The notes below the pieces were generated by a model, which had not been told where the DNA came from, did no database searches, and was given only the letters and a program-made list of their open reading frames with translations. Both the position numbers and the translations under genes were made by a program. 35,173 nt of DNA from Bacillota bacterium (lineage in GTDB: Bacteria; Bacillota; Limnochordia; Darwinibacteriales; Darwinibacteriaceae), in NCBI GenBank assembly GCA_012518645.1, contig JAAYRS010000148.1, positions 1 through 35,173 on the forward strand, in the 5' to 3' direction. Positions 3,603 through 35,051 of the stretch are shown here, piece by piece (the first letter of the stretch is position 1; each line of letters begins with the position of its first letter).

Positions 3603-4289
3603 ATGGGGGCTTTAGGTTCTCGTTTACGGCACCGGAGAAGGCAACTCCGTTTACAACAAAAGGACGTTGCCGGTAAAAGCGGTTCCAGCCTGCTTAGTAA
3701 AGTTGAAAATGGAGCATCCTATCCTTCTCTGAGAAACCTTGAAAAATGGGCCATAGTTTTAAATACCACCATGGCAAACCTTTTCGGAGATCAACTAATT
3801 TTAGAAGCAGCCAAAGAAACTATTCTCTTAACCGAGACGTGCCACGCCTATTTAGATCTTTTAAACGAAACCAGCCTGACCCGGTTTTTAAGGGAACTAA
3901 GCTCCAGTGCTAGCTCTTTAAGCACACCCGTGCCTAAACCGCCTTTGAATCCAGAGGCAGAGTATCTTACAGCAAGAGTTTTATTACAGAGGGGAACCCC
4001 TCAAAAGGCGGCTGTCCTCCTGGAAAAGGCACTGGCAACCAATAATTCCCAACTTTGGAGAATATACCACCTCCTTTTATTATGCCAAATTTACGAACAA
4101 CTAAGCGATAATCTTAAACTAACCCAGGCCCGAAAAAAATTGGCCTTGGCCCTCAACAGCTTAGATGCTCGGGATTTAGAGCTGGCCCTGCCGCCGGGAA
4201 ATGCACTTTCCCCGGCAGATTTGGGACTGTTGAAACTAAGTGCTTTTTGGCAGGCCTTCCAAGCCCACGGGCAAAGCCAAGCCTACTAG
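3603..4289 (+). CDS. XRE-family HTH transcriptional regulator with C-terminal TPR-like helical region
   Basis: MGALGSRLRHRRRQLRLQQKDVAGKSGSSLLSKVENGASYPSLRNLEKWAIVLNTTMANLF = HTH_3; helical repeat-like C-terminus. ATG at 3603 preceded by a G-rich RBS. Confidence 0.85.
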   Translation: MGALGSRLRHRRRQLRLQQKDVAGKSGSSLLSKVENGASYPSLRNLEKWAIVLNTTMANLFGDQLILEAAKETILLTETCHAYLDLLNETSLTRFLRELSSSASSLSTPVPKPPLNPEAEYLTARVLLQRGTPQKAAVLLEKALATNNSQLWRIYHLLLLCQIYEQLSDNLKLTQARKKLALALNSLDARDLELALPPGNALSPADLGLLKLSAFWQAFQAHGQSQAY

Positions 4290-5696: not shown

Positions 5697-5773
5697 TCTT
5701 TTTTCCCCCTCAGTTTTTTGGAAAATAGTTATTTCTGTATTCCTTATTACCTATGGATCTTGAGGAGAAAGTT

Positions 5774-5858
5774 TCCATGTTTCCTTAAACCCCTTTGAAT
5801 CCTAGGTAATTCACCTTATCTTCTGCCCAACCGCTGGATACTGAGTTAGACACCTCCC
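5774..5858 (-). promoter_or_regulatory. Conserved 5' leader element (copy A) upstream of porin-like gene 1
   Basis: GGGAGGTG at 5851-5858, GCTGG/CCAGC stem around it, AGGAAACATGGA at 5774-5785. Same arrangement as upstream of porin-like gene 2. Confidence 0.55.
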
Positions 5859-6025
5859 TTCACCCCAGCCCGGCTTCGAGAAAAATAAGGTCTTATTCTA
5901 TATTATCATTTGACAAGATAACCCTAATTCCTTCTTGTCTTTGGAAATTTTTCCTTAATAGTAAGTATTTGCTCTCACTCACAGTTATTCTATTAATATT
6001 CAAAAAGACCTTTTTGTTTCTTCAT

Positions 6026-6055
6026 AAAAAACGGCCCCCCCAAGGGAGCCGTTTT
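6026..6055 (-). terminator. Rho-independent terminator of porin-like gene 2
   Basis: Minus strand AAAACGGCTCCCTTGGGGGGGCCGTTTTTT. Confidence 0.85.
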
Positions 6056-6074
6056 CCAATAATCGTTGAGTTAA

Positions 6075-7373
6075 TTAAAACTCTACTTTCATACCTGCGT
6101 TGAAGGTGGTTCCTTCTTGACGATCGTGTTCAATGCCGAGGTTTACGCCGTTAGGAGCGGCAAATTCCGCACCTACTTTATAACCGACAGAATCCCAATC
6201 GAGCTTGGAAGCAGAGACTTCCGCGCTAAGTTCAAGGCCTTCAACGGCGGGCACCAAACCGAGAGTAGTGCTGGCACCTAAAGTGTGCACCAGGCCTTCC
6301 TCACCGGTCCATTCTCCTTGATATTTACCGTTTAGGACTAATCCGTCCATAATTTCTACATCCCGATCTACAGCGAACTTGGTAGATTTGGTAGTGATTC
6401 CGCTAACGGCAGGTACATCCAAAACGGTGCTTACCTCGAAGTTAAAACCATCATATTCAGTATCCGCGGCGATGCTGGCTTCCGCAAACATTTGATCGTA
6501 AGCGGCTTCCATGTTCACGCCTTGTTGAGCGGTCTTTAAACCGACAAAAAGGCCATGATGTTTCGCCCGCTCTAAGTGGATCCAATCGTGCTCAGCTTTG
6601 CCTTCCTTGGTTTTCTCAGCAACATAGCCGGGTGTCCAATCAGCGCTGATATATTTGTATCCGGCAATCACTTTGGTCTCTTCGGCCAAGGCATAATCAG
6701 CCTTCACTTTCCAGAGGCTATTTAGGCTTTCTTCCTTTTTGTCAGCAGCAAAACTTCCCGCTGCTTGCAGGCCATCGATTAGTTCGGCCGCGGCATCGGC
6801 TTGGAAGCGAATTAGCTCGTCATCAGCGATAACAGCTGCCCCAAGGTCTACCTCCTCAATTAAATCCAAGGTAGAGTGAAAACCAAGGACATGCCCTTGA
6901 CCCACTTCTCCTTCGTTCAGAGGCAATCCGTAAAAGCCGTTCAGGCTCACCAGATCTAAATCCACGCCGCTGATGCTGATTCCACTGCGTTTTTTCAAGG
7001 TAGCATAAGGACTGTAACCAATATCCAAGGTGCCGAACCGGGTTGTAGCCTCAGGCCCTCCATTCCAAAATGGGCCGTCCGCTTCGATAAATGCTTGTTT
7101 TAAAGTAATGTCGCCTAAAGAAAGAGCACTTGGCATTAATTCTTCCAGTTCTTTTTCCAACCCAAGCTCAACACCTGCTCGAACTTTATCTTGAGCAGCA
7201 CTGAGATCAAGATTAAGGGAAAGTTCAGAACCTGGGACAACCTCCAGGTTTTCCTCCTTTTTGTTTACTTCAATTTGCGTCTCGATAGCACCGCTGAAGT
7301 CGATACCGGCCGCGGAAACAGGCCCGATAGCGGCTAAAACAATGATTAGAGACAGAATAAGTGTTTTTTTCAT
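6075..7373 (-). CDS. Outer-membrane beta-barrel / porin-like protein
   Basis: Start moved to ATG 7373 (MKKTLILSLIIVLAAIGPVSAAGIDFSG signal peptide, AAGGGG RBS). Beta-rich, ends ...TTFNAGMKVEF. Confidence 0.75.
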   Translation of the reverse strand: MKKTLILSLIIVLAAIGPVSAAGIDFSGAIETQIEVNKKEENLEVVPGSELSLNLDLSAAQDKVRAGVELGLEKELEELMPSALSLGDITLKQAFIEADGPFWNGGPEATTRFGTLDIGYSPYATLKKRSGISISGVDLDLVSLNGFYGLPLNEGEVGQGHVLGFHSTLDLIEEVDLGAAVIADDELIRFQADAAAELIDGLQAAGSFAADKKEESLNSLWKVKADYALAEETKVIAGYKYISADWTPGYVAEKTKEGKAEHDWIHLERAKHHGLFVGLKTAQQGVNMEAAYDQMFAEASIAADTEYDGFNFEVSTVLDVPAVSGITTKSTKFAVDRDVEIMDGLVLNGKYQGEWTGEEGLVHTLGASTTLGLVPAVEGLELSAEVSASKLDWDSVGYKVGAEFAAPNGVNLGIEHDRQEGTTFNAGMKVEF

Positions 7374-7450
7374 AATTGATTTTATCCCCTTCAAATTATT
7401 TTTAGGGCAACAACTGCATTTCCGGCCCATTTAAGAATGATCGGGGAGTC

Positions 7451-7564
7451 TCCATGTTTCCTCACCCTAGTGTTCTTGCGGGCTTTCTCTGCATTTGCTG
7501 CACTTTGGCCAGTTTTGGATCCTCGGGGTCGCACCTCCTTTCTTGGGAAATATACCAAAACTGG
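7451..7564 (-). promoter_or_regulatory. Conserved 5' leader element (copy B) upstream of porin-like gene 2
   Basis: AGAAAGGAGGTG (7532-7543) in the loop of perfect 10-bp stem CCAGTTTTGG/CCAAAACTGG (7555-7564 / 7509-7518), plus AGGAAACATGGA (7451-7462). Confidence 0.6.
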
Positions 7565-7712
7565 ACCCAACCACCATGTTGATATGACTAACATAAGTTA
7601 GTGAAGTCGCTTTAGAATCTCCATGTTAACGGTGGTTCGCCTAGCTTATTCGCCTTTCTTAGTACTATTCCTCCTGCTAAACACCTTGTAGATCTTTCCA
7701 AGGACTTTTTTG

Positions 7713-11512: not shown

Positions 11513-11540
11513 AAGAGCTAGGATTTCTCTCCTAGCTCTT
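11510..11540 (-). terminator. Hairpin/terminator at the convergent end of uvrC and the + strand barrel gene
   Basis: AAGAGCTAGGA-TTTCTC-TCCTAGCTCTT perfect 11-bp stem (11513-11523 / 11530-11540); minus strand has a TTTT after the stem. The uvrC stop codon lies in the stem. Confidence 0.7.
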
Positions 11541-13379
11541 GCGCATGTATTGATAGATTTCCTCGGCCAGTCCGCGGTGGATCCCCTTCACCTCTTGCAG
11601 TTCGGCAGGGCTTGCCCCGCGGATCTTGGCAACCGTGCCGAAATGGCGGATTAAAGCTTTTTTTCGTTTTGGACCAATGCCGGGGATTTCATCTAGAATA
11701 GAATGCCTGATCCTCCGCCCCCGCAAATTGCGGTGATAGGCCAGGGCAAAACGATGGGCCTCATCCCTTATCTGCCGCAGTAAAAGCAGCCCCGGGGAAT
11801 CGTAAGGTAAAGAAACCGGGTCGCTGCGCTCTTGAAGATAGATTTCTTCTTTGCGTTCCGCCAGGGACAAAAACGGAATCTGCAGCCCCAGTTCATCCCT
11901 TATTTCTAAGGCTGCTCCCAGATGCCCCTTGCCCCCATCAATTAAAACTAAATCCGGAAAGGTAGCAAATTTACCTTTTTCCTCTTGCTCCTCCCGTTCT
12001 TTCAAGCCCCGCCGGAAACGCCTGCCCACCACTTCCCGCATTGCCTCATAATCATTGGGCATCCCCTGCACGTTTTTGATCCTAAAACGGCGATAGTCAT
12101 CGCTTTTAAGCAGCCCTTTTTCCCAAACCACTAAGGAGGCAACTACATCGGAACCTTGAATGTTGGAAACGTCAAAGGCCTCGATGCGCTGAGGCTTTTC
12201 TTTTAAACCCACAATTTCCCGCAGCTGTTCACTGGCCCGCTGCACATGCCTTTTCTTGTGTTCTTCCCTAGTGCGCACTTCCTCCAAAAACACTTCAGCA
12301 TTTTTCATCACTAAATCCAGAAGCTGTTTTTTTGTCCCGCGCTGAGGCCTCCGTAAATAAACGCGGCCTTGGCGCAAACTACCCAGCCATTCTTCTAAAA
12401 TCTGAGGTTCTTTTAGTAACAAGGGAACAAAAATTTCCCTGGGCACGTAAGACGCTTCGGCATAAAACTGCTGTAAAAACGAACGTAAAATTTCCGGTGC
12501 TTCTTCTTGGGCAGAGCACTCTAACAGAAAATGCTCCCTGCCAATCAATTTGCCGCTGCGTACCAAAAATACTTGGACCGAAGCGAGTTCTCCCACCCGG
12601 GCGTAGCCCACGAAATCTTGATCACCCCGGTGGCTTGCTACAATTTTTTGCTTTTCCGCTAATGCTAGAAGATCTTCGATTTGATTACGGATCCGGGCAG
12701 CCTTCTCATATTCCAAGTTCTCCGAGGCCTGTTCCATCTTCTTTCTTAAATCGGGGATTAAACGATCGATTCGCCCTTCCAGAAAGAGAAGCACCTCTGC
12801 AATCATTTCCGCGTATTTTTCCTTACTGACTAGCCCTGCGCAGGGTCCTAAACAGCGCCCAATGTGATAGTTCAGGCACGGACGGCCTTTAGCCCCTTCC
12901 TGCACCGTTTTTCTACAGGTACGGATCGGAAAGGCAGAGCGCAAAAAGGAAAGCGTATTGCGCACGGCACCTACATCAGTATAGGGCCCGAAGTAGCGGG
13001 CTTGATCATTAAGGCGCCTGCGGACCATATAAACTCGGGGGAAATCCTCATTTACTGTTACCTTGATGTAAGGGTAAGTTTTATCGTCTTTCAGCCGCAC
13101 ATTATACCGCGGGCCATATTTCTTAATTAAGTTGTTCTCTAGAATCAAAGCCTCCACTTCTGAATCGGTAATAATATATTCCAGGTCCTCTATCTGCTCG
13201 ACCATAACTTTGACTTTAAGGGGGTGGGAACGGGATTTTTGAAAGTAAGAGCGGACCCGGTTTTTTAAGCTCACCGCTTTCCCCACATAAATAATTTCTC
13301 CGGCTTCGTTTTTCATAAGATAAACACCGGGTTTATTGGGTAAATTATCCAACTTGTGTTCTAAAGCCATTAATCTCAT
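11532..13379 (-). CDS. uvrC: UvrC, excinuclease ABC subunit C
   Basis: [40 protein letters not shown] domain, C-terminal HhH. ATGA overlap with uvrA. Confidence 0.97.
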
Positions 13380-16219
13380 CCTTTGAATGGGAACACTTTG
13401 CGGTCACTTAAGATCCGGCGCAAAAACTGGCCTGTGTAGGATTGAGGCACGCCTGCCAATTCCTCCGGAGTGCCCTTAGCAACCACTGTGCCCCCTTCTT
13501 CTCCCCCTTCCGGTCCTAGATCGATAATATAATCAGCGGTTTTAATCACATCTAAATTGTGTTCGATCACAACCACCGTATCTCCAGCATCAACCAAACG
13601 CTGAAGGACCAGGAGGAGTTTGCGGATATCTTCAAAGTGCAGGCCTGTGGTGGGTTCATCTAAAAGATAAAGGGTTTTGCCGTTGCTGCGCCGGCTTAAT
13701 TCTGTAGCCAACTTCACCCGCTGCGCTTCGCCTCCGGAAAGTTCGGTGGCTGGCTGGCCTAACTTTAGGTAACCTAAACCCACATCATAGAGGGTTTGCA
13801 AACGGCGGTAGATTTTGGGCACATGGCGAAAGAATTCTACCGCCTCTTCCACCCGCAAGTCGAGGACATCAGCAATTGATTTCCCCTTATACTTCACTTC
13901 CAGGGTTTCCCGCCCATAGCGCTTTCCTTTGCACACTTCGCAGGGGATATAAACATCGGGGAGAAAGTGCATTTCAATCTTAATAATGCCGTCTCCTTTG
14001 CAGGCTTCACAGCGCCCCCCTTTGACATTAAAGCTAAAACGGCCCGGCTTATAACCGCGCATTTTTGCCTTATTGGTTAAAGAAAACAGTTCGCGGATAC
14101 CGTCAAAGGCCCCTGTATAGGTAGCGGGGTTTGAGCGCGGCGTCCGCCCAATGGGGGACTGGTCAATTTCAATTATTTTATCTAAATGTTCCTGCCCTTC
14201 GATGGAATCGTGTTTCCCCGGTTTAGCCCGGGCCCGGTGTATTTCTTGACTTAGCTTTTTATACAAAACTTCATTTACCAAAGTGCTTTTCCCCGAACCG
14301 GAGACACCGGTCACAGCTACAAATAAACCGAGGGGAAACTCGACATCAATATTTTTAAGATTGTTTTCCCGGGCACCCTTAATTTTGAGCCAGTTGCCGT
14401 TAGGTTTACGGCGTTTTTCGGGAATCCGAATCTTCTTGGTACCCCGCAGGTATTGACCAGTGAGAGAGGCGGGGTGAGCACAAATATCATCCCAACTCCC
14501 TTGGGCTACAACTTCCCCCCCGTGGGATCCGGCGCCGGGCCCCAGATCAATAATCCAGTCGGCAGCTTCCATGGTCCCTTGATCATGTTCTACGATAATT
14601 AAAGTATTCCCTAAATCCCGCAGCCCTTTCAAGGTATCCAAGAGCCGGGCATTATCCCTTTGATGCAGGCCGATTGTGGGTTCATCCAAAATATATAATA
14701 CTCCCATCAGGCTTGATCCAATCTGAGTGGCTAAACGAATACGCTGTGCTTCTCCCCCGGAAAGAGTGCTCGATGCCCGATTCAGGGCCAGGTAATCCAA
14801 GCCCACGTTAACTAAAAAGCCTAGGCGCTCTCGAATTTCTTTTAAGATTTGTTCCCCAATAAGCAACTCCCGTTCCGTTAGGGACAAGCCCTCAAAAAAG
14901 CGGAGGCTTTCTTTAATAGAAAGTTCCGTAACTTCCATAATATTCTTGCCGCCTATAGTTACCCCTAACACTTCCGGGCGCAGCCTCCGTCCTTGACACT
15001 GGGAACAAGTGCGGACACTCATATACTGTTCCACATCCTGCCTGACCCAGTGAGATGTGCTTTCCCGGTAACGCCTTTCCAAAGCGGGAATCAGCCCTTC
15101 AAAAGGCGCCTCGTAACTCCGCTCCCGGCCGGCCCGGTTGGTATAGCGGAAACTGATTAACTCCGAGCCCAAACCATAAAGGAGGATCTCCAATTTATCC
15201 TGAGCCAGCTGGCCCAGGGGGATCTCCGGATCAATGCGGTATTGAGCACAGACACTATCCAAAATCGCCCACAGCCAGCGGCTCTTGCTGTCCCTCCAAG
15301 GAATCAAACCCCCATCTTCTAGGGATAATTCCCTATCCAGGATCAAATCAGGATCTATATCCTGCCTGGTTCCCAATCCTTCGCAGTTGGGGCAAGCACC
15401 GAAGGGGCTGTTAAAAGAAAACATGCGGGGGGTTAACTCTTCCATGGATATCCCGCAATCAACGCAGGCAAACTTTTCACTAAAGACAAGTTCTTCCCCA
15501 TCCAGGACCTGGACGAACACAATGCCATCGCCTTTTTCCAAGGCAGTCTGTACTGAATCACTTAACCGCCCGGTAATATCTTGGCGCACCACTAGACGAT
15601 CGACAACAATTTCAATATTATGCTGCTTATTTTTATCCAAGTCAAGCTGATCAGTAACTTCGAAGATCTGCCCGTCCACCCGGACGCGGACAAACCCATC
15701 TTGGCGGATGTTTTCTAAAACTTTTTTATGCTCTCCCTTCCTGCCTCTAACCACAGGGGCCAGAATTTGAATCCTGGTTTTTTCCGGAAGGGCCAAGATC
15801 TGATCAACAATCTGTTCTACCGTCTGCTGCTGGATAGGTTGTCCGCACTGAGGACAATGGGGACGCCCAATCCGGGCAAACAAAAGACGCAGGTAGTCGT
15901 AAATTTCGGTGACCGTCCCCACAGTGGATCTAGGATTGCGGCTGGTGGTTTTTTGATCAATGGAAATGGCCGGAGAAAGTCCCTCAATTAGATCCACATC
16001 CGGCTTATCCATCTGTCCTAAAAACTGCCTGGCGTAGGCAGAGAGGGATTCAACATAACGGCGCTGGCCTTCGGCATAAATTGTATCGAAAGCCAAAGAA
16101 GACTTACCGGAACCGGATAAGCCTGTGATCACCACTAATTTGTCTCGCGGTATTTCTATATCTATATTTTTCAAGTTGTGCTGTCTGGCACCCTTGATAA
16201 CTAAACGGTCCTTACTCAA
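13376..16219 (-). CDS. uvrA: UvrA, excinuclease ABC subunit A
   Basis: [59 protein letters not shown]; two ABC signatures and zinc-finger motifs. Confidence 0.98.
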
Positions 16220-18204
16220 ACTGACAACCCCATTTCAATCCTTAACTCTTCAATTTCATCCCGCAATTCGGCGGCTTTTTCGAATTCAAGATCCTGGGCA
16301 GCAGCATACATCTCCCCTTCCAACTCTTGAATATAGGCGATGATTTCCTTCAATGTGCCCTTTATCCTTGTTTCGTACTTCTCTTTGCTTTCGGCCGCTT
16401 GCTCTTCAGGAATCTCTTGGGCGATATCTTTGATAGCTTTTTCAATACTGACGGGCGTGATCCCCTGAGCCTGGTTATAAGCTTGTTGAATGCGGCGGCG
16501 GCGGTTAGTTTCGTCAAGAGCGTACCGCATAGCCTCCGTAACCCTATCTGCGTACATTACCACTTTGCCCGCCGCGTTCCGGGCGGCCCTGCCGATAGTT
16601 TGTACCAGGGCTGTGGAGGAACGGAGGAAACCCTCTTGATCCGCATCTAAAATAGCCACTAAGGAAACCTCCGGCAAATCAAGTCCTTCTCTTAAAAGAT
16701 TAATGCCCACAAGAACATGAAAGACCCCTAAACGCAGCTCCCTTAAAATTTCTATTCGTTCTAAAGTATCTATATCCGAGTGCAAATAACGCACTTTTAA
16801 TCCTAATTCAGTGAAGTATTGAGTGAGATCTTCGGCCATCCTTTTAGTAAGCGTAGTTACCAAGACTCTTTCGTCCCGCTTAATAACTGTCTCTATTTCA
16901 GCAAGGAGATCATCTATTTGACCTTGGACCGGGCGCACTAACACCTCAGGATCCATTAAGCCGGTAGGCCTAATTACTTGCTCCACAACTTTTTGGGAAT
17001 GCTCCCGCTCATAAGGTCCGGGAGTAGCGGAAACAAAAACGACTTGGTTCATATGGCTTTCAAATTCCGCAAACCGCAAAGGGCGGTTATCTAAGGCAGA
17101 GGGAAGCCTAAACCCGTACTGAACAAGGTTTTCTTTGCGGGACCTATCCCCAAAGTACATGCCCCGCACCTGGGGCACGGTTACATGCGACTCGTCAATA
17201 ATCATCAGATAATCCTTGGGGAAGTAATCTAAAAGCGTGGCCGGCGTTTCTCCTGCTTTCCTGCCGCTTAAGGGGGCGGAATAATTTTCTACGCCAGTAC
17301 AGTACCCCAGTTCCTGGAGCATCTCTAAATCATACCTTGTCCGCTGCTCTAGACGCTGGGCTTCCAATAGTTTGTTTTCTCGGCGAAAATACCGCAGGCG
17401 CTCTTCCAGCTCTTCTTCAATCGTGGGAATCGCCCTGGCTAACTTCTCCTCCGGAGTTATAAAGTGGGAGGCGGGATAAATCGTCAGGCTGTCCCGTTGG
17501 CCTAAAATCTCCCCTGTAATGGGATCCAGCTCCTGAATACGTTCGATCTCATCACCAAACATCTCGATCCGGATAACAGATTCACTGCCCACCGGAATTA
17601 TTTCAATTACATCGCCCCGAACCCTAAAGGTACCTCTTCTGAATCCCACATCGTTGCGTTCATACTGAATACCCACCAAGCGCCTTAAAATGTGGTCCCG
17701 ATCCCGAAATTCTCCATCTTTCAGAGAAAAAGTCATCCCTACATAGTCTTCCGGGGACCCCAGGCCATAAATGCAGGATACACTGGCCACAATAATCACA
17801 TCGCGGCGTTCAAAAAGGGCACTGGTGGCGGCATGGCGCAGCCGATCGATCTCATCGTTGATACTGGCGTCTTTTTCAATGTAAGTGTCGCTCTGGGGCA
17901 CGTAAGCCTCAGGCTGATAGTAATCGTAATAGCTGACAAAATAATGAACCGCGTTCTCCGGGAAAAACTCCCTAAACTCGTTGCAGAGCTGGGCAGCCAA
18001 AGTCTTATTGTGGGCAATAACCAAAGTTGGTTTCTGCACAGTTTCTACAACCTTAGCCATAGTATAAGTCTTGCCGGAGCCGGTCACACCCAGCAGAGTT
18101 TGAAATTTTAAACCTTCGTTTAAACCTTTGACAATTTCCTCGATAGCTTTGGGCTGATCTCCCGCAGGTTCAAAAGGAGCCTGAAGCCGAAAAGAAATAG
18201 GCAT
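16216..18204 (-). CDS. uvrB: UvrB, excinuclease ABC subunit B
   Basis: [61 protein letters not shown]-terminal UVR domain. ATG at 18204 after AAGGAGG. Confidence 0.98.
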
Positions 18205-18332
18205 AATCAATCCTCCTTAAAAAGGGATAAGTAAAAGAACTGCCGGAGGGTTCCGGAGAAGATTGAAAGCGGAAAGCGAAGGTCTAGAAAAGGCTGCGGC
18301 CGAAAACTTGACCCTTGCCTTTTAGTCTAACA

Positions 18333-28275: not shown

Positions 28276-30789
28276 TTACCTCCCACAGCACTTTTTAAAT
28301 TTCAGCCCGCTGCCGCAGGGACAGGGGTCGTTCCGGCCTACCTTTTTTTCCACCCGACGCGGTATTTTTTCGGGGATTTCCCCATCGGCGCCTTGGTTTA
28401 ACTGCGCCCCCGCTAGCCGATCTTTAGGCTCTGCCCTTTCAGCCCGGCGCATACGCACCCTAAAGAGCATGCTGAGACAGTCCTCCTGAATACTAAAAAC
28501 CATTGCCTGAAACATTTCATAGGCCTCAAAACGGTATTCCAAAAGCGGATCCCGCTGCCCATAGGCCCGCAGGCCGATACCTTCCCGCAAATCATCCATA
28601 GCGCTAAGGTGATCCATCCATTTTTGGTCTGTAATTTGAAGCAAGACGATTTTTTCTATCTGGCGCTGAATTTCCGGGCCATACTCCCGGCTTCTCTTCT
28701 GATAAGCCTGCCGAGCCTCTTTTATGAGGAGTTCCTTAATTTCTTCTGTTTGAAGATCCCTCAATTTGGTTTGGGAAAGAGGCGCGGGTTGGTTGACAAT
28801 TTCCATGTAACGCTGCCTCAAACCCTCTAAATCCCATTCTTCAGGAATCACTTTTTTATCTGCATAACGTTCAACCAATTGATCAAACACCGTAAGAAAC
28901 ATGTTTTGAATCTGGGCAGATATATTTTCATCCAGAAGAACCGCCCGGCGCTGCTCGTAGATCACTTCCCGCTGCTGATTCATAACATCGTCGTATTCCA
29001 AAACTTGTTTCCTAATCTCGAAATGACGGTTTTCTACCCGTTTTTGGGCATTTTCAATAGCTCTGCTGATTTGAGGATGATCGATTGCTTGATCTTCTTC
29101 CCAACCCAAGCGATCCATAATCCCCATAATTCGATCTGAACCAAATAAGCGCATTAAATCGTCTTCCAAGGAAACAAAAAATCGGGAGGAGCCGGGATCG
29201 CCCTGCCTTCCGGATCGGCCCCGGAGCTGGTTATCAATGCGCCGGGATTCGTGGCGTTCCGTACCAATAATATGCAGGCCGCCTAAATCCACTACCCCCT
29301 CGCCTAGCACAATATCCGTACCGCGCCCGGCCATGTTGGTAGCTATGGTTACCATTTTCTTTTGGCCGGCCAATTTTACAATTTCGGCTTCTTTATCGTG
29401 GTGTTTTGCGTTTAAAACCTGGTGGGGGATACCCTTTTTGCTCAAAAGAGCACTTAATAATTCCGAACTTTCGATGGAGATGGTACCTACCAATACCGGC
29501 TGCCCTTTTTGGTAGCAGGCGGCAATCTCCTCAATGATCGCTTCTTGCTTGCCGCGCTTTGTTTTGTAAACAGCATCGGGGTAATCGATTCTAATCATCG
29601 GTTCATTTGTCGGAATCACCACTACATCCAGGCCGTAAATTTTCCGGAACTCTTCCTCTTCTGTTTTGGCCGTTCCAGTCATCCCCGCTAGTTTTTCATA
29701 CATTCGAAAATAGTTTTGGTAGGTGATTGCGGCTAATGTTTGGCTTTCTTGGAGCACAGCTACTTTTTCCTTAGCTTCGATTGATTGGTGCAAGCCGTCC
29801 GAGTAGCGCCTCCCCGGCATCATGCGGCCGGTAAATTCGTCCACAATCAAAACCTCGTTGTCTTTGACAACATAATCCCGATCCCGGACAAAAAACTCTT
29901 TAGCCTTTAGAGCTTGATTAAGATAATGGTTTAGCTCAAAGTTAACGTCGTCGAAAAGATTTTCGATGTTAAGAGCCCGTTCTACTTTAGCAATTCCTTC
30001 CTCTGAGATGGCAATAGTCTTCGCTTTTTCATCTACTGTGTAATCTTTTTCCCGCTTTAACTGAGGCGCAATTTGGGCAAAACGCTGGTAGTGGCGGGCG
30101 GAATCTTCAGCCCGTCCCGAAATAATTAAAGGAGTCCTGGCTTCATCGATCAAGATCGAATCCACCTCGTCCACAATCGCGTAATGAAGTTTTCTTTGGA
30201 CTATTTGTTCCGGGGAAACAACCATATTATCCCGAAGGTAATCAAAACCGAATTCATTATTGGTTCCGTAAGTGACGTCGGAATTATAGGCCCGCCGCCT
30301 TTCTTCGAAATTTAAGCCGTGCACAATAACACCGACACTTAAACCTAAAAATTCATAAACCCGGCCCATCCACTCGGCGTCGCGCCGGGCAAGGTAGTCG
30401 TTAACTGTAACAACATGCACACCCCGCCCCCCTAAGGCATTGAGGTAGACCGGCAGAGTGGCCACAAGGGTTTTTCCTTCCCCGGTTTTCATTTCAGCAA
30501 TGCGTCCTTGATGCAGGATTATTCCGCCCAGAAGCTGGACATCGAAATGGCGCATTTTTAAAACGCGCCAAGAGGCCTCCCGGACAACGGCGAACGCCTC
30601 CGGGAGAATATCTTCCAAAGCGCTTCCCTCCGCCAGCCGGGCCCGAAATTCATCAGTTTTTCCGGCCAATTCCTGATCACTGCATTTCTGCATCTCTTTT
30701 TCCAAGTCATTAATAACATTTACCGTTTGATCCAGACGCCTTAATTCCCGTTCATCCGAATCAAATAGGTTTTTAAAAATTTTAAGCAC
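28276..30789 (-). CDS. secA: SecA, preprotein translocase ATPase
   Basis: [50 protein letters not shown]-terminal [15 protein letters not shown] zinc motif. Confidence 0.98.
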
Positions 30790-34259: not shown

Positions 34260-34496
34260 TTAGGCTTGCGAATCCTTAATTATCCGTTCTAAAGCCCCTA
34301 AATCAATTTCTTTTTCCAAAACAGCCCGTTGGTTCTCTGCTTGGATCTCTTGATATATTTCTTGGCGGTGAACCATTATTTCCCGGGGAGCATCGATCCC
34401 TAATTTGACCTGATCTCCCCTTACATCCACTACCACCACACGAATCTGATCGCCAATCATAATGCTTTGGTCTACTTTGCGTGTTAACACCAGCAT
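34260..34496 (-). CDS. csrA: CsrA, carbon storage / translational regulator
   Basis: [54 protein letters not shown] at 34496. Confidence 0.97.
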
Positions 34497-34541
34497 AGCC
34501 AGTCCCTCCTTGGACCTTATTCTTCCCAAGCGAGCCCATAA

Positions 34542-35051
34542 TTAGACTGATTCGGAAATTTCTCTGGAAACTGCTTCTTCTTGCTTAAGGAGTTTCTTCC
34601 CCTCCACAAACGCGTTTTTGTGCATTTCGGCCAAAACATTATGTTTGGTACGGTAAAAACCCTCGCCATTGATAATCTGGGCCCCTAAATTTTCTTTAAT
34701 ATTGATCACCAGCGGGGCTTGTAAGTTTACTGTCATTTCCGCCGGATCGTCAGGGACGGTAACAATCCCGTAAACCCGGCCGTCGCCCGGCGCTGCCAAC
34801 TGCAGCAGTTCAATTTCCTTCTGATCCAGCTTCACAGAATACTCAGTGCAGACAAGCTCGGGAATCATGATCACAAAGGTTAAAGCGGGTTCATCCACTG
34901 ATTGTAAGAAACTAAAGAAACCTTCTTCGCGCTCGACAATGATATAGCGGTGATATTTGGAAAAGCCCAATAAACCAAGGGGAAATTCGATAATGTTTTC
35001 CTCTTTTACTTCCAAGGTACCCAGCTTAGTTTCTAATTTCACCCTATCCAC
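34542..35051 (-). CDS. fliW: FliW flagellar assembly factor
   Basis: LGTLEVKEENIIEFPLGLLGFSKYHRYIIVE...FSFLQSVDEPALTFVI, adjacent to csrA. The initiator may be the in-frame GTG three codons downstream. Confidence 0.95.
   Translation of the reverse strand: MDRVKLETKLGTLEVKEENIIEFPLGLLGFSKYHRYIIVEREEGFFSFLQSVDEPALTFVIMIPELVCTEYSVKLDQKEIELLQLAAPGDGRVYGIVTVPDDPAEMTVNLQAPLVINIKENLGAQIINGEGFYRTKHNVLAEMHKNAFVEGKKLLKQEEAVSREISESV

Follow-up and report, generated by a model that had tools for sequence, protein, structure and literature searches.

The SLH motif was described as a riboswitch candidate that was found in Thermovirga lienii (Stav et al. 2019, BMC Microbiol 19:66, PMC6429828). According to that description, it comprises 80 examples from Synergistaceae, Clostridia and Negativicutes, of which ~60% lie before SLH genes and the others before genes of 'unknown function', and the main text offers no mechanism (PMC6429828). 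A different role of leader RNA is known from the cry3A STAB-SD of Bacillus thuringiensis, where a bound 30S subunit stabilises the mRNA by blocking RNase J 5'-3' decay (PMC4113751), and the tisB mRNA of E. coli has a ribosome standby site with a pseudoknot, in which the docking region is single-stranded and needs S1 (PMC7708055).

The present study concerns two leaders, here called A and B, within a 35,173-nt stretch of DNA from a diderm Firmicute (the window hereafter); unlike the SLH-gene context of the motif described above, both copies in the window precede porins without SLH. To my knowledge, little is established about the control of the most abundant envelope proteins (OmpM, SlpA, porins) in diderm Firmicutes, Synergistota, Atribacterota and Deinococcota.

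Results

Two porin leaders in the window

The genes for porin A and porin B lie in tandem and their leaders align; relatedness between the two proteins was not detectable. No Pfam family was found for porin B, and its AlphaFold model (pLDDT 70, a moderate confidence) is all-beta with ~24 strands, its PDB matches being outer-membrane barrels. Homologues of porin A and porin B were present in 21/41 and 31/41 genomes, respectively. The features of the two leaders and their surroundings are collected in Table 1.

Table 1. Coordinates of the porin genes and of the observed and predicted leader elements in the window.
Feature	Position	Strand	Basis or remark
Porin A gene, Porin_4, 426 aa	4416..5696	-	downstream of leader A; Pfam Porin_4, E 2e-6
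Leader A RBS region, ACTGAGGGGG, putative partner of the SD-hairpin loop	5705..5714	-	direct reading
Leader A long stem around hairpin 2	5746..5811 (5811-5798 with 5760-5746)	-	fold and pair counts
Leader A hairpin 2, AAGGAAACATGGAAACTT, contains the 12-mer	5769..5786	-	
Leader A SD hairpin, outer stem ACCTTAT/ATAAGGT, inner stem GCTGG/CCAGC	5813..5891	-	
Leader A loop segment CTCAGT, complements RBS bases ACTGAG (5714-5709)	5840..5845	-	partner-swap test
Leader A SD-like element, GAAGGGAGGTG, loop closed by GCTGG/CCAGC	5851..5861	-	155 nt upstream; conserved in A leaders
Porin B gene, 432 aa, signal peptide	6075..7373	-	downstream of leader B; all-beta barrel-like model
Leader B RBS, AAGGGGA	7385..7391	-	
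Leader B hairpin 2, GAGGAAACATGGAGACTC, contains the 12-mer	7446..7463	-	
Leader B SD hairpin, CCAGTTTTGG/CCAAAACTGG	7509..7564	-	
Leader B ACCCC after the SD-like element, complements RBS GGGG	7525..7529	-	weak here
Leader B SD-like element, AGAAAGGAGGTG, full complement of the 16S 3' end	7532..7543	-	159 nt upstream
Leader B upstream domain, AACCACCGTT/AAC.ATGGTGGTT, inner hairpin ACTAACTTATGTTAGT	7569..7637	-	conserved in the order
SigH-like promoter AGGA-N17-GAAT, upstream of leader B	7648..7672	-	consensus match only

The original prediction, made from the window alone, had placed an identical 12-mer 78 nt from each porin start codon, and both positions and spacing were confirmed: AGGAAACATGGA occupies 5774-5785 and 7451-7462 (minus strand), with the A of the ATG (5696 and 7373) 78 nt away in each case, and these are its only two copies in the whole 2.06-Mb genome. 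Likewise, the SD-like elements 155 and 159 nt upstream were found in both leaders with no start codon at usable spacing, and the complementarity of the copy B string to the 16S 3' end turned out to be perfect against the 16S of relatives (GGATCACCTCCTTTCT). The predicted stems closing the SD-like loops exist in both copies, but each is part of a larger fold; in leader A, a stem of 5891-5885 with 5819-5813 encloses GCTGG/CCAGC, and in leader B, CCAGTTTTGG/CCAAAACTGG is joined by an upstream domain. Two features had been missed: an 18-nt hairpin that contains the 12-mer (reading AAG..CTT in leader A and GAG..CTC in leader B; hairpin 2 hereafter), and a complement of the RBS located 3' of the SD-like element. 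The predicted pseudoknot helix between loop and RBS of leader A is 97% paired among 16 sequences, with one two-sided change. The corresponding helix of copy B is short (~5 bp; duplex energy -8.9) and weaker than most, and the 3' flank of hairpin 2 in this leader, CTCCCC, is also able to pair with the RBS. Predicted folding of the leaders was only modestly better than that of shuffles (z -2.4 and -1.6).

Several observations concern the surroundings of the leaders. The AGGA-N17-GAAT promoter-like site is kept in many members of the family and order and would give a leader B of ~265 nt, and the ACTAACTTATGTTAGT hairpin at 7603-7588 (minus strand) is near-invariant in leader B of most genera and absent or changed in genus g3. 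A regulator with HTH and TPR-like parts, possibly acting on transcription, is encoded convergently with the porin genes (3603-4289, plus strand). The porin contig also carries a uvrB-uvrA-uvrC cluster (11532-18210), secA (28276-30789) and, in the same window, a csrA and fliW pair (34260-35051), all on the minus strand; in some relatives, csrA is found close to the porin genes.

Conservation of the leader elements

Leaders of porin B homologues were gathered by protein similarity alone, with no use of the motif, and those aligned had in common AAAGGAGGT, the hairpin GAGGNAACNNGGNNACTC and an RBS reading AAGGGG(G). Leaders of porin A homologues contained the same two elements, with a hairpin reading AAG...CTT. 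Across genera, both elements are present in leaders selected by protein homology only. Tested in this way, the 12-mer and the SD-like element proved to be conserved upstream of homologous porins. There were two exceptions: one porin B homologue of family f3 (L053) had lost the hairpin, and the most distant porin B homologue (L058) kept the hairpin without a clear SD-like string. Another leader B (L036, genome G012) showed an N run between two identical hairpin copies, which is probably an assembly gap artefact.

Hairpin 2 can be written as RAG-GAAACNNGGNNA-CUY, with a G-C closing pair in the B-type and an A-U closing pair in the A-type. Read from these sequences, the 12-mer is the core and loop of a predicted 18-nt hairpin whose closing pair differs between the two gene types. 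The hairpin pattern RAGGNAACNNGGNNACTY occurred in 59/61 related genomes, with 133 matches as opposed to 13 when the pattern was reversed. Either form, A-type (AAG/CTT) or B-type (GAG/CTC), is retained separately in many genera. A third copy of the element in this genome was located upstream of an SLH-domain outer-membrane protein.

In the relatives, the 16S 3' end is complementary to the SD-like consensus, (A)GAAAGGAGGUG, in which position -1 is A or G only, either of which pairs with the 16S U. A start codon 5-13 nt after the string was present in 22/122 leaders, with ~25% expected. Because start codons at this spacing are no commoner than chance, the SD-like string does not serve a small ORF as its RBS, and an upstream ORF or leader-peptide attenuator was ruled out on the same grounds.

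Complementarity of the leaders to their own RBS

The loop bases that follow GGAGGUG complement the RBS region of the same gene, and the sequences involved vary. Porin A leaders have CUCAGU::ACUGAG, with a compensating pair CUCAGA::UCUGAG in L012, while SLH leaders have GGUUU(C)::(G)AAACC and genome G011 has GUGGUU::AACCAC. Further distinct pairs were CCCUAAGU::ACUUAGGG, UUAUCCCCC::GGGGGAUAA and CCUUGAUUG::CAAUCAAGG, and others appeared in Synergistota (ACAACCCCC::GGGGGUUGU), Trueperaceae (CCCUUGAAUCG::CGAUUCAAGGG) and Margulisbacteria (CUUAGUC::GACUAAG).

For 122 non-redundant leaders, the loop::RBS duplex was -13.5 kcal/mol for native and -10.5 kcal/mol for partner-swapped combinations, giving a z-score of ~-13 which, as for all swap tests here, overstates certainty since clades are not independent; the variety of complementary pairs is the stronger argument for this reason. 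Control segments yielded z-scores of 0.2, -0.7, -1.2 and -2.0, and the left flank of hairpin 2 ~-3. Split by group, the Limnochordia class gave a z-score of -8.2 and the leaders from elsewhere -9.8; within Synergistota and within Atribacterota, where the sequences hardly vary, the test was not significant. The 3' flank of hairpin 2 was also complementary to the RBS (z -9.9; Deinococcota alone z -2.8), and the same strand forms the lower stem of the hairpin (z ~-23). Expression switches are usually built in this way, with one strand that has two mutually exclusive partners.

Covariation had been named as what would set these leaders apart from plain recent duplication, and it was present: 16/44 proposed pairs showed two-sided changes in 16 aligned A leaders, a count as high as this being reached in 0/500 shuffles. 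Across phyla, MAFFT plus RNAalifold recovered just the 4-bp stem of hairpin 2, and as the stems were too divergent for such alignment, partner-swap statistics and the pair counts of A leaders were used instead. Some letters of the SD-like string and hairpin are conserved by construction in the pattern-based sets. Signals of covarying loop bases inside hairpin 2 were weak and probably phylogenetic, with pair 1-18 forced by the filter.

Taxonomic range and downstream genes

The element was found upstream of SLH or porin genes in many families of diderm Firmicutes, phylum-wide. Named genomes were scanned with a pattern of the SD-like string, 58-88 nt and then the hairpin, and the matches listed include Synergistota, Atribacterota, Deinococcota (Trueperaceae and others), Margulisbacteria, Halanaerobiales, Negativicutes and Limnochordia, as well as single MAGs labelled Armatimonadota, Abditibacteriales and Planctomycetales. 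Among the named loci are Synergistaceae, Thermovirgaceae, Negativicutes and many Firmicutes. Firmicutes, the setting of the original prediction, proved too narrow, as the element occurs in other phyla; the leader stands before genes for outer-membrane or surface-layer proteins in at least five phyla of bacteria.

A readable downstream ORF was available for 132 of the 134 two-element matches listed, the other 2 being at contig ends. Among the matches listed, 132/132 of these ORFs encode SLH-domain (90) or exported porin-like proteins (42), where non-SLH proteins were called exported by simple rules; Pfam SLH was present in 9/9 proteins tested.

Hairpin 2 was detected in 97/101 Deinococcota genomes, usually in one copy (the reversed pattern occurs ~0.07 times per genome), and 25/29 matches checked precede an SLH gene. 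Most of these Deinococcota copies are without an SD-like loop, and in one Negativicutes family hairpin 2 likewise stands alone. Because hairpin 2 persists alone in these groups, it is the core of the leader and the SD hairpin its widespread partner, and the putative docking site is not essential to the leader class.

Two side observations were made on individual loci. OmpM-type leaders of families f42 and f80 (L142-L144, L152) have hairpin 2 without the SD-like loop, and some of these genomes are without CsrA. At L240, a molybdenum cofactor riboswitch (RF01055; 1991-2112, minus strand) was found at the same locus as the element.

Discussion

Proposed mechanism and alternative explanations

On balance, the evidence tips slightly towards each leader being a cis-acting RNA that sets the translation of an abundant outer-membrane protein, through a combination of an SD decoy or standby site and RBS sequestration. 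The upstream hairpin would display the full complement of the 16S 3' end in a ~25-nt loop and could thereby serve as a docking site for 30S, whether as standby or as decoy. The next loop bases would pair with the gene's own RBS region in a long-range pseudoknot that closes the RBS with a 30S waiting nearby. The likely recognition element is hairpin 2, whose loop, GAAAC-NN-GG-NN-A, is invariant; the lower 3' strand of this hairpin may act as a second anti-RBS, such that forming or opening of the hairpin would alter access to the RBS. A bound factor, be it a protein or a metabolite, might then shift the balance, and a docked 30S would load fast on the freed RBS. I infer a translational leader rather than a mere mRNA stabiliser because the loop bases and the 3' flank of hairpin 2 can both pair with the gene's own RBS.

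The original prediction of a porin-specific mRNA stabiliser or cis-regulatory RNA holds as far as a conserved cis-regulatory RNA of outer-membrane genes in diderm Firmicutes is concerned, but not in being porin-specific, given that the third copy precedes an SLH-domain protein. As a pure stabiliser of the STAB-SD kind, a 30S on the SD-like loop would block RNase J 5'-3' decay and give a long-lived mRNA for abundant outer-membrane proteins, the rest of the leader being a scaffold. Such a role has the cry3A precedent (PMC4113751) and agrees with an SD-like string that lacks a start codon and fully complements the 16S 3' end; it predicts neither the covarying complementarity of the neighbouring loop bases to each gene's own RBS nor the persistence of hairpin 2 where the SD-like loop is absent, and I consider it unlikely. 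A metabolite riboswitch, proposed earlier for the SLH motif in the description by Stav et al. (PMC6429828), is a possible reading, if a doubtful one. Here, the aptamer would consist of hairpin 2, alone or together with the upstream hairpin, its ligand would be a metabolite of the cell-envelope or second-messenger kind, and the anti-RBS strands would form the expression platform, in keeping with hairpin-2 loop letters that are near-invariant across phyla and a 3' flank that can alternatively pair with the RBS. However, ~12 conserved loop letters are few for an aptamer, and the three unrelated protein families served share no common pathway beyond the outer membrane.

The presence of csrA in the same window, and a hairpin-2 loop that contains AGGA (usually ANGGA), might point to an ACANGGA-like CsrA site through which csrA-fliW (34260-35051) regulate the porins. 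Against this, position 9 of the loop is not invariably A, and CsrA was not found in the carriers G189, G259, G280, G159, G157, G282 and G285, among them a single-contig genome (G280) and one with eight copies (G189); CsrA was ruled out as the general factor for hairpin 2, and a CsrA target is very unlikely overall. Functionless paralogous leaders that are alike through recent duplication would fit the tandem genes and alignable leaders, but the proteins are not detectably related, A-type and B-type are each kept in many genera, SLH genes in other phyla are preceded by the same element, and the pairs covary, which together rule out recent duplication and leave this explanation with practically no weight.

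The translational reading preferred here has a more speculative extension, which I regard as rather improbable. With one hairpin holding both the decoy loop and the RBS of the gene itself, 30S binding might directly open or close the RBS, and such a ribosome-sensing leader would couple the synthesis of an outer-membrane tether or porin to free 30S; it would be a very old leader RNA of diderm lineages. The diderm lineages that carry the leader are often grouped as Terrabacteria. I know of no described counterpart to a ribosome-sensing switch class of this design.

The leader probably sets the output of very abundant outer-membrane or surface-layer proteins, and one conserved RNA before such genes in several phyla would constitute a shared control point of the outer membrane. 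This is relevant to whether the outer membrane was passed on along with its control, or whether there were losses and gains. It also supplies a testable mechanism for an uncharacterised riboswitch candidate.

Comparison with known systems

No Rfam 15 covariance model gave a hit above threshold at any leader. The taxa reported for the SLH motif (Synergistaceae, Clostridia, Negativicutes) match those of this leader, both are located upstream of SLH-domain genes (90/132 among the matches listed here), and a locus of the Thermovirgaceae (L221) carries the present element, T. lienii being the organism in which the motif was found. In my judgement, going by distribution and gene context, the leader very probably belongs to the same class as the SLH motif. 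The remainder of the motif that was described as of 'unknown function' would fit barrel porins. New with respect to the SLH motif as outlined in its main text are the putative SD decoy, the two predicted anti-RBS pairings, the porin members without SLH, and a much wider taxonomic range, which extends to Deinococcota, Atribacterota, Margulisbacteria and Limnochordia.

The S-layer gene slpA of Thermus thermophilus is reportedly controlled through its 5' UTR. This resembles the present case in that an SLH/SlpA-type gene is controlled via its leader, and hairpin 2 stands before SLH genes throughout Deinococcota.

The closest mechanistic analogues are the cry3A STAB-SD and the standby-plus-pseudoknot arrangement of tisB. 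The cry3A 5' UTR, like the leaders described here, contains an SD-like sequence that is complementary to the 16S 3' end without starting translation, whereas in the present leaders this string lies in a hairpin loop, beside a complement of the RBS of the same gene, and a second conserved hairpin goes with it. In tisB, 30S docks ~100 nt upstream of an RBS that is sequestered, and there is a pseudoknot, an arrangement resembling the one proposed for the present leaders; the sequences are unrelated, and in the leaders a full SD complement would do the docking and the RBS itself would be part of the pseudoknot.
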